64,000 nucleotides of DNA from Oligosphaera ethanolica (GTDB taxonomy: Bacteria; Verrucomicrobiota; Lentisphaeria; Oligosphaerales; Oligosphaeraceae), in contig NZ_JAUSVL010000001.1 in the NCBI RefSeq assembly GCF_030814695.1, positions 4,934,227-4,998,226 of the forward strand. The letters are read 5' to 3'. The notes beneath the pieces are model-generated. The model worked only from the letters and a program-made list of their open reading frames with translations. It made no database searches and was not told where the DNA came from. Below are positions 4,369-38,710 of the stretch, one piece after another. A program made the position numbers and the translations under genes. Numbering within the stretch: the stretch's first letter is position 1; each line of letters starts with the position of its first letter.

Positions 4369-4537
4369 GGTTCCATTGCCCATTCGGCCCCAGTCAGCTG
4401 CGCCGACTGGGGCCGAATGGGCCGAGGAACACGGCCATAATGGGCGCGCTACCCAGGGCGGCGCGCGCCTTCGGCGCCGCTTGCCCTGGGCTGGTATGTT
4501 TCGCGCTTTCAGCGCTTCTGCCGCTTCGCGGCGAGGG
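4369..4537 (+). repeat. Dispersed hairpin repeat, copy D
   Basis: The intergenic region 4247-4907 has no gene. It holds a structured repeat shared with copies at 14007-14306, 17613-17912, 38031-38155 and 38232-38396. Hairpin 1 (4379-4421) has a 17-bp perfect stem, CCCATTCGGCCCCAGTC. Hairpin 2 (4452-4490) is bounded by CCCAGGGC/GCCCTGGG. Small hairpins GCGCT-TTC-AGCGC and GCCGC-TTC-GCGGC follow. This copy has no long terminal inverted repeats. Three base pairs of hairpin 1 differ from the other copies, each on both strands. Confidence 0.85.
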
Positions 4538-13680: not shown

Positions 13681-13851
13681 GTAATCGGTCAGTAACCATC
13701 CCGGTGGGGAAAACACCGGGGTGGTTACTCCTATGAAACACGCTGCCGCAAAGGTCGGCGGAAATCAAGGTCGGATGGCTGGGCGGCGACTGGCCGTGGG
13801 TTTCCTGCAAATTGTCCCAGCGAAGCGCCGGGGTGGTTACTGACCGATTAC
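13681..13851. repeat. Small element with 24-bp terminal inverted repeats (A)
   Basis: A 171-bp non-coding element. Its ends read GTAATCGGTCAGTAACCA... and the complement, matching over 24 bp with one mismatch. Next to the left end a second hairpin (13691-13728) pairs AGTAACCATCCCGGTG with CACCGGGGTGGTTACT. The first 11 bases, GTAATCGGTCA, are shared with elements at 14007, 17613 and 37635. No reading frame is present. Confidence 0.8.
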
Positions 13852-13860
13852 GACGGAGCG

Positions 13861-13972
13861 GACCGATCGGACCGATCGGACCGATCAATCGTCGGAGCAG
13901 TCGGAGCAGTCGGAGCAGTCGGAGCAGTCGGAGCAGTCGGAGCAGTCGGAGCAGTCGGAGCAGTCGGAGCGG
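13861..13972. repeat. 9-bp tandem repeats (GACCGATCG)3 and (TCGGAGCAG)9
   Basis: Three units of GACCGATCG (last base varied) at 13861-13887, then eight perfect TCGGAGCAG units and one variant at 13892-13972. A small hairpin GCGGAC-taat-GTCCGC follows directly (13970-13985). The same sequence type occurs at 30412-30528. Confidence 0.95.
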
Positions 13973-14006
13973 ACTAATGTCCGCCATCGCCAGTTTGACG
14001 GGCAAG

Positions 14007-14306
14007 GTAATCGGTCACCCATTGAGAATTAAGCCACAGAGCTTCTGGCTGAGTCAAACGCGCCCGTTTCCCTGGCCGCGAAGCGGCAGAAGCGCTGAAA
14101 GCGCGAAACATACCAGCCCAGGGCAAGCAGCGCTGAAAGCGCGCGCCGCCCTGGATACAACGGCGACTACGTCCGTGTTCCTCGGCCTCTTTGGCCCCAG
14201 TCGGCGCAGCTGACTGGGGCCAAAGAGGCAATGGAACTCACTTACATACCCGGGGTTGACGTCGGCGATATGTCTGTGCGTCCGTTCTCAATGGGTGACC
14301 GATTAC
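14007..14306 (-). mobile_element. MITE-like 300-bp element B
   Basis: Exactly 300 bp bounded by a perfect 22-bp terminal inverted repeat starting GTAATCGGTCACCCATTG. It has no coding capacity. The interior contains a full hairpin repeat in the minus orientation, with hairpin 1 at 14186-14228. It differs from the inverted copy at 17613-17912 at about five positions. No clear target-site duplication is visible. It would need a transposase supplied elsewhere. Confidence 0.75.
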
Positions 14307-14415
14307 GGGCGCAGCATCCCAGGTGACCAAAAACATCAGTGATTGCGCCGGAGGCATGACACGTCGCATCCCGCCTCACCAGGGTGAGGCGGGAAAGCCT
14401 GCTGAGCTCGTCTGA

Positions 14416-14467
14416 CCAGGGCTGGTATGCTTCGCGCTTTCAGCGCTTCTGCCGCTTCGCAGCGAGG
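14416..14467 (+). repeat. Partial hairpin repeat (copy G)
   Basis: Matches the 3' half of the dispersed repeat, from CCAGGGCTGGTATG through GCGCT-TTC-AGCGC to a slightly altered GCCGCTTCGCAGC. The sequence from 14307 to the next gene at 14670 holds nothing else recognisable. Confidence 0.75.
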
Positions 14468-14669
14468 TGAATGTTAGTCGACGACGAGGTCTCGCATAAA
14501 AGTGTGCTGGTGACGCGTAATGTTTTTGTGAGCTGGTCCTGGTATCAATGAGTAAGGGATTGCCACAAGCAACCTTCGGCTCGACAAGCAACGCTTGATA
14601 CCCAATATTAAATCGTAATGCTAAAACGTTCAAACGGCAATGTCGATTCCCCCGCCCCCTGAGGACACC

Positions 14670-16418
14670 ATGACTGGATACAATCCATCGCTACCCCTAT
14701 TGGTTGCACTGCTTGGTTGCTGCCATATAACAGCCCTTGCCGAACAAGTCACAACTTTAGGAAAGCTCCCTGGAATGAGGATGATCACAGTGGCCGCAAA
14801 CCAGGCACAAATGGCCGATGCCGATTATTATGGCCTATCCGGCCTGCAAAAAGCCATCCGGGACCTGCCTGAATTGTTGCCGGACAATCCTGCCGAAATC
14901 AGGCTCTGCGGAATGTTCCACGCCACGCTGGCTGATTACCTTCCCTGCGGAATCAATTCGGACAAAACGATCATTCCGCCCAAAAAACACCTCGTCATCA
15001 GCGGCACTGATCCGGATAAAGACGGCATTGTCGCAGTGCTGCCTGACGACCTCGATATTGCCTATCAGCAGTACTGCGTACTGACCACGCGCGTGTCCAT
15101 GACGCTGAAGGACCTCACCTTCACAGCCAAAAACATCCGCTACGTGCTCCATGTGTACGGCGGTAGCGCCACCAATGCCCACATCGTCATTGACGGCTGC
15201 ATGCTTCGCCACAACGGCAGCTCAGGCCTATCGTGGAAACGCTGGCCCCATCCGCGCCCCCTCGGCGTGGGCCTCTCAAGCGGCATGACTTTCATGGTCA
15301 AAAATTCTACGTTGTACAGCCACAACCTCGTGCCGATCACTCACGGTTCGAACCACCGTTTTACCAAACCAGCCTACGTTCTCTATGAGAATGTGGCCGT
15401 TAGCGCTGGCCCAGCAGTCAGTGACCTGGTCTACCTCTACTCGCAGGGATCCGCCACCATCAACACCATTGAGCTCAAAGGCGTCAGTGGCAAAGGCATG
15501 GTCCGCATCGGCGAGGGACAATGGACGCTCAGCAAAATCAGCGAGCAGCCGGCTTGTCACAATGAATTCCGGCTGATCATGCGAGACACGCCACCACGCC
15601 CATACCTGTATAACGCCAAGGGAACGGCGCTGAAAATTACGTCCAAAACCACCGGCCCTGGCTCATCAGTCCGCTTCGATGAGACATCCTCGGCCTTCCA
15701 CTGCCTGATAGCCAACGGCGAACAAACGGACTACGACTATCGCGACGGCGGTAACGCCCTCCCAGGCTACGCCGTCGGCCTCTGTTCCATCCAGGAAAAT
15801 CCCTACAGCTACCATAAGGGCAAAGTCATCACCGCCCTCGGCAAAAGACTCGGCGACTGCTCGCAAAACCACAAGGCGCTGGGCGTCACCATCAACGGCA
15901 AACACCATGACATCATTTTCGCAAAAAACTACGATGGCACAGACCCATTTCATCCCCCCGCATACGACAACGCCGCCATCATTGCCGATATGAACGCCGC
16001 TATCGGCAAGGTCGCCGAGGTGGCCACCTGCAACCCCGGCAGCGACTATTACCCCGAATTCGCCGGTCTGACCACGAAAATAAACCGCGACGACTCGGAG
16101 GTCCTCGCCGGCATGGGCGTGGTCTTCATGGGCCCCAACGGCTTCCGTAAAGCACGAGCCAGCGATGGCAAAATCGACGCCGTGGTCCTGGACAACGGCC
16201 GCGCCGGCGATCCCTGCAGAATCATCACCAGCGGCGAATTATGGGCCGAAGCCACCGGCCAGCGCTTCGCCGCCAAAGAACTTCACGCCGCCAAAAGAAG
16301 CCCCGGCGAAAAACTCGGCATTGCCAGCAAACACCCCGGTTACTTCGAACTCAACACCAACCCACCATGCCTGGAAGCCACAGCCGAAAATGTCCTCCAC
16401 ATCATCCCCCAACCGTGA
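14670..16418 (+). CDS. Secreted beta-helix-like protein of unknown function
   Basis: A 582-aa protein with signal peptide MTGYNPSLPLLVALLGCCHITALA. Residues ~60-330 have short hydrophobic beta repeats (MTLKDLTFTAKNIRYVLHVYG, HIVIDGCMLRHNGSSGL) suggesting a parallel beta-helix. The C-terminal ~120 residues (FRKARASDGKIDAVVLDNGR, RIITSGELWAEATG, KRSPGEKLGIASKHPGYFE) resemble small beta-rich decoration or tail-type modules. I do not recognise a named family. ATG 14670 is preferred over 14640 for its signal peptide and GAGGA, although the spacing is short. Codon use is more AC-rich than in the neighbouring genes. Confidence 0.55.
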   Translation: MTGYNPSLPLLVALLGCCHITALAEQVTTLGKLPGMRMITVAANQAQMADADYYGLSGLQKAIRDLPELLPDNPAEIRLCGMFHATLADYLPCGINSDKTIIPPKKHLVISGTDPDKDGIVAVLPDDLDIAYQQYCVLTTRVSMTLKDLTFTAKNIRYVLHVYGGSATNAHIVIDGCMLRHNGSSGLSWKRWPHPRPLGVGLSSGMTFMVKNSTLYSHNLVPITHGSNHRFTKPAYVLYENVAVSAGPAVSDLVYLYSQGSATINTIELKGVSGKGMVRIGEGQWTLSKISEQPACHNEFRLIMRDTPPRPYLYNAKGTALKITSKTTGPGSSVRFDETSSAFHCLIANGEQTDYDYRDGGNALPGYAVGLCSIQENPYSYHKGKVITALGKRLGDCSQNHKALGVTINGKHHDIIFAKNYDGTDPFHPPAYDNAAIIADMNAAIGKVAEVATCNPGSDYYPEFAGLTTKINRDDSEVLAGMGVVFMGPNGFRKARASDGKIDAVVLDNGRAGDPCRIITSGELWAEATGQRFAAKELHAAKRSPGEKLGIASKHPGYFELNTNPPCLEATAENVLHIIPQP

Positions 16419-16492
16419 GTCAGTAACAGCATGCAGAACCTTATCGGGCTCTTCTGCATCTTTCCGATCTCACGTCTTTACAGACAGGTAAT

Positions 16493-17296
16493 ATGCTAAG
16501 AATAACCTTCAAAACGCTTTGGGCCAGATGGTATTTCAGATGCCTCTGTTACGTCCTGATTATTGTTCCTGTCTTTACCATTATAGCCATTATCAACATG
16601 GACAAGCTCTTGTTTCCAATTCCCGATGCCACCTCAGCATCTGGTAATTGCCAACTTCGTTCAGAGACTGCAGTACTTGATGCCCTGTGGCTGGAAGGAA
16701 AAAAGGACTATCCAGTTATCCTCTACAGTCATGGCAATTATGAAACGCTTAAAGATATACGGCCTCTTTGTTATGAGTTCCGCTTACAGGGATATGGCGT
16801 TTTGGCGTATGATTATGCCGGATACGGTTCTTCTTCGGGAAAACCGTCGGCAAAGCAGGCATATAGCGATATTGAGTCGGCTTATGATTTTTTGATACAC
16901 GAGAAAGGAGTGCCGCCTGCAAATATCCTCATTGTCGGCTATTCTGTTGGCAGTGGCCCAAGCTGCCACTTGGCGTCAATGCACGACGCAAAGGCCCTTG
17001 TGCTATGCGCGCCACTTGCTTCAGCTATACGCGTGGTACTGCCATTTTCACTCCCGGGAGACAAATTCAAAAACATCGACAAGCTATCCACCCAAAAAAT
17101 ACCGGTGCTGATTTTTCATGGCGAAAAAGACGATGTCATTCCATATCGGAATGGCAAACTGCTGTATGACAACTCCCTTGGGCCCAAACACCTGGTGACA
17201 GTTCCAAATGCAAGCCATAACGATTTGTTTGACTGCCTCGGAGATGATTTCTGGAGCGAAATCAAATCCTTCCTTGCAGAAATCCGCCAATTGTAG
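16493..17296 (+). CDS. Alpha/beta hydrolase, BEM46/ABHD-like, membrane-anchored
   Basis: A 267-aa serine hydrolase with one N-terminal membrane anchor (YVLIIVPVFTIIAIIN). Catalytic features: the oxyanion HGN in YSHGNYET, nucleophile elbow GYSVGS, acid HGEKDDVIP and the His of NASHND. Such proteins are esterases, thioesterases or depalmitoylase-like enzymes; the substrate is unknown. The gene is visibly more AT-rich than its surroundings, suggesting transfer or relaxed composition. It starts 74 bases after the preceding gene. Confidence 0.75.
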   Translation: MLRITFKTLWARWYFRCLCYVLIIVPVFTIIAIINMDKLLFPIPDATSASGNCQLRSETAVLDALWLEGKKDYPVILYSHGNYETLKDIRPLCYEFRLQGYGVLAYDYAGYGSSSGKPSAKQAYSDIESAYDFLIHEKGVPPANILIVGYSVGSGPSCHLASMHDAKALVLCAPLASAIRVVLPFSLPGDKFKNIDKLSTQKIPVLIFHGEKDDVIPYRNGKLLYDNSLGPKHLVTVPNASHNDLFDCLGDDFWSEIKSFLAEIRQL

Positions 17297-17406
17297 GCCT
17301 TGCCAGAAGAAGCATCAAGGCATAAGCAAGGCACGTTTTGGGCACTTTCGCAGAGCCGGGCAGGATAGCGGGCTCAGGCATCTTGTTTCGCGACACTAGC
17401 GCATAT

Positions 17407-17444
17407 AAAAAAACAAGCCTGCCAGCAATAACTGACAGGCTTGT
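17407..17444 (-). terminator. Rho-independent terminator of tRNA-Ala
   Basis: On the minus strand ACAAGCCTGTCAG pairs with CTGGCAGGCTTGT (one G-T pair) around a TTATTG loop, followed by seven T. It lies 12 bases past the CCA end of the tRNA. Confidence 0.85.
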
Positions 17445-17456
17445 GATTTTGGTAAC

Positions 17457-17533
17457 TGGTGGAGCTAAGGGGATTCGAACCCCTGGCCTATACGTTGCGA
17501 ACGTATCGCTCTAGCCAACTGAGCTATAGCCCC
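17457..17533 (-). tRNA. tRNA-Ala (anticodon CGC)
   Basis: A 77-nt cloverleaf read on the minus strand. The acceptor stem GGGGCTA pairs with TAGCTCC, and its third pair is G-T, the G3:U70 identity element of alanine tRNAs. The anticodon loop TTCGCAA gives CGC, which reads GCG. The T-loop has GGTTCGAATCC. The 3' CCA is encoded, with discriminator A. Confidence 0.95.
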
Positions 17534-17612
17534 GGCGTATCTGAAAACGTGTTTAAATTACCCGCCACGGTCGCTTTTGCAAGCAGCGGCAGGCGAAAAA
17601 AACGCTTGCCCG

Positions 17613-17912
17613 GTAATCGGTCACCCATTGAGAACGGACGCACAGACATATCGCCGACGTCAACCCCGGGGATGTAAGTGAGTTCCATTGCCTCTTTGGC
17701 CCCAGTCAGCTGCGCCGACTGGGGCCAAAGAGGCCGAGGAACACGGACGTAGTCGCCGTTGTACCCAGGGCGGCGCGCGCTTTCAGCGCTGCTTGCCCTG
17801 GGCTGGTATGTTTCGCGCTTTCAGCGCTTCTGCCGCTTTGCGGCCGGGGAAACGGGCGCGTTTGACTCAGCCAGAAGCTCTGTGGCTTAATTATCAATGG
17901 GTGACCGATTAC
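17613..17912 (+). mobile_element. MITE-like 300-bp element C
   Basis: A second 300-bp copy of element B, in inverted orientation, with about five base differences. The terminal inverted repeats start GTAATCGGTCACCCATTG and match the opposite end over 19 bases. It contains hairpin 1 (17691-17733, 17-bp stem CCTCTTTGGCCCCAGTC), hairpin 2 (17764-17802) and the two small hairpins. It lies between the tRNA and the GNAT gene and may carry that gene's upstream sequence. It has no gene of its own; a frame running through it is a shadow. Confidence 0.75.
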
Positions 17913-18043
17913 CTGCGCCCTTGCATATTTCGTTTGTAGACGTTGTGCGCCGGCGGCCGTGCTATATTTTGCCGCGTTACTGGATGGCGGCGGCAGGTTT
18001 TCCGCCGCGGCACGATGAAACCCTAGCAATAGGACAAACGAGC

Positions 18044-37516: not shown

Positions 37517-37646
37517 GATTGGACCTGGGGGGATAACGGCGGAATTTTCTGCTTAACGCGGACGGTCTTGCGCCTTAATGTAACGCCAGGACCGCACCGC
37601 GACGGCCGCAGCGACGCGAAAAGTCGAGACGGCAAGTAATCGGTCA

Positions 37647-37716
37647 GCCATAGATAATAGCCGGGACCGTGGTGACGCCTGGGACCGATGGACTAATTGG
37701 CGACTGTGCGCTGGGG
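37647..37716. repeat. 70-bp direct repeat, copy 1
   Basis: Begins GCCATAGATAATAGCCGGGA and is identical over 70 bases to 38482-38551. It is preceded by GTAATCGGTCA (37635), the terminal motif of the inverted-repeat elements. The following 37717-37850 is a degenerate GGACT/GGGACTGTGG-type simple sequence, and 37850-38030 shows no feature. The whole gap 37517-38710 lacks genes. Confidence 0.95.
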
Positions 37717-38030
37717 TGAGGACTCGTGGACTCATGAGGCATGATCCCATGGATTGGACTGTGGGGACTTTTGGGACTGTGGGGAATGACGCCTTGGACG
37801 CCGGGGACTGCTTGAGGACCTCTTGGACTCTTGGGAGCGCCGCCGGCCCTGGGTTACTGATCCGGGCCGAAAACCGCTGCCATGCGATGGCGATGTTTTT
37901 GCGCCGTAGGCGCTTAACCATGCTTAACCCCAGGCTTCAGCCCATATGCGTTAAGTTGTTCTTTTTTTTCGATTTTTTATCCAAAAGTCCCCTTTTCAAA
38001 GCGACAAAGGCGGCCTGACATGTCTTTCCC

Positions 38031-38155
38031 GTAATTGGTCAGCCATTGATACCAGCCATTCCTGCGGCCTTTGGTTTTCAGCACCGAAGGTGCGCCCTAA
38101 GATAGCCCAGGGCAAGCGCCCGCAGGGCGCGTCGCCCTGGGTAAGGTGCCCCATC
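38031..38155 (-). repeat. Hairpin repeat, copy F (minus orientation)
   Basis: Starts with GTAATTGGTCAGCCATTGAT, close to the terminal motif of the MITE-like elements. It holds hairpin GCACC-GAA-GGTGC (38081-38093) and hairpin 2 (38106-38141), bounded by CCCAGGGC/GCCCTGGG with an inner GCGCCC/GGGCGC stem. Hairpin 1 is absent. It faces copy E across about 75 bases. Confidence 0.7.
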
Positions 38156-38231
38156 CCAAAAGAGCCCTGAAGGGGCGGCCTAAAAGACCTGCGACGAAGG
38201 GTCACAGCGCAAAATTGCCGCAGCAATCAAT

Positions 38232-38396
38232 GAGTTCCATTGCCTCTTTGGCTCCAGTCAGCTTCGCCGACTGAAGCCAAAGAGGCTGAGGAACACGGAC
38301 CAATATGGCGCGCTACCCAGGGCGGCGCGCGCCTTCGGCGCCGCTTGCCCTGGGCTATCTTAGGCCGCGCTTTCAGCGCTTCTGCCGCTTCGCGGC
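38232..38396 (+). repeat. Hairpin repeat, copy E
   Basis: A full copy of the core repeat. Hairpin 1 (38243-38285) has stem CCTCTTTGGCTCCAGTC with one uncompensated mismatch. Hairpin 2 (38316-38354) has an inner GCGCC-TTC-GGCGC. GCGCT-TTC-AGCGC and GCCGC-TTC-GCGGC follow. The connector after hairpin 2 is CTATCTTAGG, also found inverted in copy F, instead of CTGGTATG. Confidence 0.85.
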
Positions 38397-38481
38397 GGAA
38401 ATGCACGACGAGAAAAGGCTGCTTGGTTGAAACAACAAGTGCCATGGATACCGTTAAATGAAGGGCATCGGTTTCATAGGA

Positions 38482-38551
38482 GCCATAGATAATAGCCGGG
38501 ACCGTGGTGACGCCTGGGACCGATGGACTAATTGGCGACTGTGCGCTGGGG
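38482..38551. repeat. 70-bp direct repeat, copy 2
   Basis: Identical to 37647-37716. The two copies bracket repeats F and E and about 765 bases of non-coding DNA. The frame of the following PLD gene can be extended back into it, which is why a later start is chosen for that gene. Confidence 0.95.
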
Positions 38552-38710
38552 CGAGGCCTCGTGGGCAAGCGAGTGCAATCGAGTGCAATCGACGGAGGCC
38601 TTCCGGCGAACGCCGGGTTATCTTCTCTTCACAAACGCGTTTTCGGGCGCTACATTTTTGGCGTTACTAGTGTTGTGAGCAGCCAGTCTCGTCCAGTGCC
38701 GGGAGCCGCC

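Follow-up and report, generated by a model that had tools for sequence, protein, structure and literature searches.

Inverted 300-bp MITEs, probably with IS66-type ends, carry an Acido-Lenti-1 motif and bracket a segment that appears to have flipped in Oligosphaera ethanolica

The 64,000-nucleotide stretch of the Oligosphaera ethanolica genome analyzed here (the window) holds two 300-bp elements that belong to a genuine MITE family. The ends of this family are probably of IS66 type, and its members carry a known structured motif and have left a readable inversion. In the history that we favor, to which we assign a probability of about 0.8, a MITE with IS66-type ends and a structured-repeat interior inserted twice in trans, duplicating 8 bp each time, and recombination between the inverted copies then flipped the segment between them. 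Neither MITEs nor inversions mediated by repeats are new as such; what is new is the link to IS66, the presence of Acido-Lenti-1 as cargo, and a scar that could be resolved.

Copy 1 (positions 14007 to 14306, forward strand) and copy 2 (17613 to 17912, reverse strand) are each 300 bp long and mutually inverted; over a full alignment they differ at 5 of 300 positions (sites 20, 67, 74, 149, and 242), giving 98.3% identity. Both are bounded by the 22-bp terminal inverted repeat (TIR) GTAATCGGTCACCCATTGAGAA, which is perfect in copy 1 (14007 to 14028, forward; 14285 to 14306, reverse) and matches at 21 of 22 positions in copy 2 (inner end at 17613 to 17634, forward; outer end at 17891 to 17912, reverse). 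With up to two mismatches allowed, the TIR has about 170 matches in the genome versus none for the reversed control pattern and is therefore far more frequent than expected by chance. Compared with shuffled sequences, the element folds much more strongly (z of -11 as DNA and -13 as RNA). An ORF check found no plausible gene within the 300 bp, the overlapping ORFs entering from flanking DNA. The first-pass annotation of this DNA, made from the letters and their ORFs, had described two inverted elements of about 98% identity, with inverted-repeat ends and no coding capacity, and was accurate on each of these points.

A search for the terminal repeat across the genome (5.73 Mb in a single contig), one of the checks that the annotation had proposed, returned many further copies with these ends. 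About 25 copies, the window pair among them, are near full length, with 84 to 100% identity. In the 20 copies that retain both ends, the 8-bp target site duplications (TSDs) match at 8/8 positions in 10 cases, at 7/8 in 3, and at 6/8 in 2; one more has a TSD match shifted by one base, two lack a TSD, and the window pair, whose halves are swapped, completes the set. Our element catalogue, which is confined to 444 kb surrounding known ends and so is not complete, contains 32 rows that correspond to 31 distinct TIR-bounded elements (two rows are nested at 1995 kb). These have the outer bases GTAATCGGTCA in common, 8-bp duplications that match at 7/8 positions or better, and sizes from 168 to 2826 bp; they include mosaics, in which one end is that of this MITE and the other is of a second type (GTGTACACCCCGG or GTAACCACCCCGG). 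Within the class, the TIR is present in 6 of 198 genomes, which represent two genera.

The family thus displays the hallmarks of MITEs, namely, a length below about 600 bp with no transposase gene, TIRs, TSDs, dispersed copies, empty sites, and ends in common with an autonomous element. It resembles the bacterial MITEs described in a review (PMC10969869) and MITEPsy1 (PMC3189936) in being short, non-coding, TIR bounded, TSD making, multicopy, and a substrate for recombination, with movement in trans being probable. It differs from them in its interior, where an Rfam RNA motif lies that also occurs as a dispersed repeat in its own right, and in its ends, which are probably of IS66 type, a family that the review does not mention. 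There is a hint that the flanks of RNA genes are preferred: three copies (L003, L004, and L020) have a tRNA gene no more than about 105 bp away, and a fourth (L006) is equally close to the RNase P RNA gene. A smaller element of 124 bp, with the same TIR and 8-bp TSDs, is carried by contigs of genome G022 (L119 and L240).

Several other repeats lie in the window. Beside copy 1 stands a second element type of about 171 bp (13681 to 13851), with ends GTAATCGGTCAGTAACCA, which has a 12-bp outer TIR in common with the MITE; this end type is also found in TSD-flanked composites. At the site of this element, a second species of the genus (G002) has a 300-bp MITE instead (L142, about 2242 to 2537). 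A GTCGGAGCA minisatellite (13891 to 13970) adjoins copy 1, and the same array occurs in G002 with GTCGGATCA units (L208, 10 to 90). Positions 37636 to 38564 hold a cluster of Acido-Lenti-1 repeats with partial GTAATCGGTCAG ends, an 84-nt direct repeat whose copies are 835 bp apart, and the alternative end GTTTCATAGGAG.

The flanks of the window pair bear on what happened between the copies. Copy 1 (E) is found as CGGGCAAG-E-GGGCGCAG and copy 2 (E') as CTTGCCCG-E'-CTGCGCCC, all read on the forward strand. The outer left flank CGGGCAAG (13999 to 14006) finds its partner not at 14307 but just before copy 2, as its reverse complement CTTGCCCG (17605 to 17612), and the outer right flank CTGCGCCC (17913 to 17920) pairs with its reverse complement GGGCGCAG just after copy 1 (14307 to 14314). 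Since the outer flanks are reverse complements of the inner ones, the pair carries two 8-bp duplications with their inner halves exchanged. Among 217 element ends, exact long-distance TSD matches number two, both from the window pair; shuffling the letters of the ends gave, on average, 0.82 exact matches across all pairs of ends. Composite transposition via the outer ends was rejected, as the outer 8-mers differ. The segment that would have been inverted is 3.3 kb long (14307 to 17612) and contains a 592-aa ORF, an alpha/beta hydrolase gene, and a tRNA-Ala (CGC) gene (17457 to 17533, reverse strand). Of the genes that the first-pass annotation had placed between the copies, the hydrolase and the tRNA-Ala are correct, whereas the label "beta-helix gene" is unsupported; the 592-aa ORF (14640 to 16418) has no Pfam match.

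Relatives of the same genus were searched with a reconstructed pre-inversion, pre-insertion sequence, built from both flanks. The empty site of copy 1 was found in G002 contig 69, where an unbroken match (254/267 identity) runs from the GTCGGA minisatellite through GACGGGTAAG to the tRNA-Ala gene. Therefore, the tRNA-Ala end, now at the far end of the segment, adjoined the left flank before copy 1 was present. A second exact empty site, that of the copy at 5220391, lies in G002 contig 308, so that the proposed search for empty sites in relatives yielded two precise ones; a third insertion, at 2248921, is common to both species. The ancestral junction of copy 2 is not recoverable in G002, which has a different element end and unrelated sequence there. 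Because of this element end, and because the two species differ downstream of the tRNA, the ancestral order is directly documented on the left side only. Judging from the swapped scars and the empty site in G002, the 3.3-kb segment between the copies appears to have flipped; what had been suggested as a capacity of the inverted pair would be recorded here as a past event. Correia repeat enclosed elements of Neisseria offer a parallel, being small, bounded by TIRs, and reported to undergo inversion (cited in PMC10969869). However, according to that review, it is the Correia element itself that inverts, while here we infer the inversion of a 3.3-kb segment between two separate copies.

We propose that an IS66-family transposase acting in trans would have inserted copy 1 next to the tRNA-Ala gene, with CGGGCAAG as the target and with duplication of 8 bp. 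Copy 2 would have inserted at CTGCGCCC, 3.3 kb away and in the opposite orientation, again with duplication of 8 bp. Later recombination between the inverted copies would have flipped the intervening segment, exchanging the inner TSD halves and leaving the tRNA-Ala gene, the hydrolase gene, and the 592-aa ORF in reverse order. Homologous recombination between two independent inverted insertions, which is how we interpret the exchange, accounts for all of the data. At sites 20 and 74, where the copies differ, each allele is present in other members of the family, which suggests two separate insertions.

The same flanks could have arisen in one step, if a single MITE at the tRNA-Ala site had undergone intramolecular replicative transposition into the CTGCGCCC target, generating the second copy together with the inversion. 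Such an event predicts the arrangement seen here, x-E-rc(t) for the left copy and rc(x)-E'-t for the right one, and both copies do fall within the same subgroup of the family. However, they are not mutual closest relatives: they differ from each other at 5 positions and from L002 at 4 and 3, although tree support is weak. The alleles at sites 20 and 74 also speak against a one-step origin, even though homoplasy or conversion could account for their presence elsewhere in the family, and no other pair with the swapped pattern was seen in the 444 kb examined. On balance, we consider replicative transposition unlikely. A further possibility concerns the assembly: an error at the 300-bp repeats, or the capture of one state of a mixed population joined there, would also produce swapped flanks around a repeat-bounded segment, and G002 does have the other order on the left side. 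Against this, the single 5.73-Mb contig suggests that long reads were used, the whole span is just 3.9 kb, and no other swapped pair was found among the 217 ends. We therefore take the assembled order to be real and its being an artifact or a mixed state to be quite improbable. Finally, an origin of the pair in one inverted segmental duplication, the outcome that would have spoken against transposition in the first-pass annotation, might be suggested by the 98% identity and proximity of the copies but is refuted, since the homology ends exactly at the TIRs, the flanks are unrelated except for the 8-bp halves, members of the family are spread across the genome, and one of the two sites is found empty in G002.

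The likely mobilizer of the MITE is an IS66-type transposase, as judged from comparisons of ends. In Lentisphaerae bacterium ADurb.Bin082, a MAG (G005) from a sister genus in the same family, a 2566-bp element with TIR GTAATCGGTCACCGATTG is flanked on both sides by the 8-bp TSD TTTTTCGC and encodes a 591-aa DDE_Tnp_IS66 (PF03050) transposase along with a 140-aa DUF6788 ORF. When its left end is compared with the initial 36 bp of the MITE, the best agreement, 34/36 positions, is with the subfamily of L019 and L138; in copies 1 and 2, the same 36 bp align with lower scores. IS66 elements generate 8-bp repeats (PMC3281130), and the GTAA-ended IS66 copies of the source genome are likewise flanked by 8-bp TSDs. 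The MITE has both GTAA termini and 8-bp TSDs, and its ends are nearly identical to those of the sister-genus PF03050 element; unlike members of the IS66 family, it has no internal transposase, and the source genome yielded none whose ends match.

The resident IS66 copies were considered as direct parents. PF03050 has six near-full matches in the source genome, besides fragments, and the ends that could be recovered read GTAAGCGCTCGCCCAGCC or a one-base variant; direct parentage was rejected, as GTAAGCGCTCGCCCAGCC has only about 12 of its first 15 bases in common with the MITE TIR. In neither the source genome nor two same-genus relatives (both incomplete drafts) did we find a PF03050 transposase flanked by matching ends, and at E<=1e-20 the L114 transposase had no relatives in the source genome. 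The check proposed in the first-pass annotation, a search for a transposase gene bounded by the same ends, thus came back negative for the source genome and gave a close match in the sister genus only. Two other candidates for an autonomous partner were discarded: a 2.2-kb stretch at genome positions 2696320 to 2698529 proved to be two unrelated elements around ordinary genes, and a 2826-bp TSD-flanked element at 269706 (L087, 3207 to 6032) is a MITE mosaic broken up by the gene for a DDE_Tnp_1 (PF01609) transposase. In G002, an 85%-complete draft, we counted 148 exact TIR matches and no PF03050 match, that is, many MITE ends without a visible mobilizer. The MITEs look like passengers of an IS66-type transposon. 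Since no matching transposase was found in the source genome or the two same-genus relatives, the family may be stranded, or it may be moved by the resident IS66 copies, whose ends resemble those of the MITE without being the same, such cross-mobilization being possible.

The interior of the MITE (positions ~67 to 232 of the element) is a unit of about 165 bp that combines a long hairpin with a match to the Rfam motif Acido-Lenti-1 (RF01687). In copy 2, the RNA match (17764 to 17828, forward strand) scores 40.3 bits, above the gathering score of 37; in copy 1, the corresponding structured repeat (14091 to 14156, reverse strand) is degenerate and scores 26.7 bits, below that threshold. The long hairpin lies at 14177 to 14237 in copy 1 and at 17682 to 17742 in copy 2. 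All 20 near-full MITE copies scanned contain the RF01687 motif, 14 of them above the gathering score. The unit also occurs without both MITE ends, at 4452 to 4516 and 38316 to 38380 of the window and at sampled loci elsewhere in the genome, with about 84 to 91% identity; some of these end-less copies are in or near other TIR-bearing elements. The first-pass view of the hairpin repeat as cargo, with other copies lacking these ends, is therefore borne out, and its wider reading of a non-autonomous element that captured, or spreads, a structured repeat is largely supported by the family-wide ends, the empty sites, and the end-less copies.

Weinberg et al. (2010, PMC2864571) listed RF01687 as a probable RNA that is probably not cis-regulatory. 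A 2026 paper (PMC13298647) states that little is known of the function of Acido-Lenti-1 and suggests a regulatory role near protease genes. Matches to RF01687 occur in 74 of 198 genomes of the class; in several genomes they number up to the 29 candidates scored per genome and form clusters. Rfam classes the motif as an sRNA gene, whereas in the source genome it belongs to a repeat unit that is mobile and present in many copies. Because the motif is also found outside the MITE ends, Acido-Lenti-1 acts in this lineage as a partly mobile, dispersed repeat. More tentatively, Acido-Lenti-1 in Lentisphaeria might be a structured module of mobile repeats, spread partly inside IS66-type MITEs, as opposed to an sRNA gene of the conventional kind. 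The scatter of the motif across the phylogeny and the apparent conservation of its structure could then reflect element propagation instead of sRNA function, a proposal that we put forward with some doubt.

The pair described here is an unusually clean natural record of chromosome rearrangement by small non-coding transposons, in which the empty site, the insertion scars, and the inversion are all legible in the sequence. In addition, it connects an RNA motif listed in Rfam with a mobile element, a point to bear in mind when RF01687 matches are annotated as regulatory RNAs.
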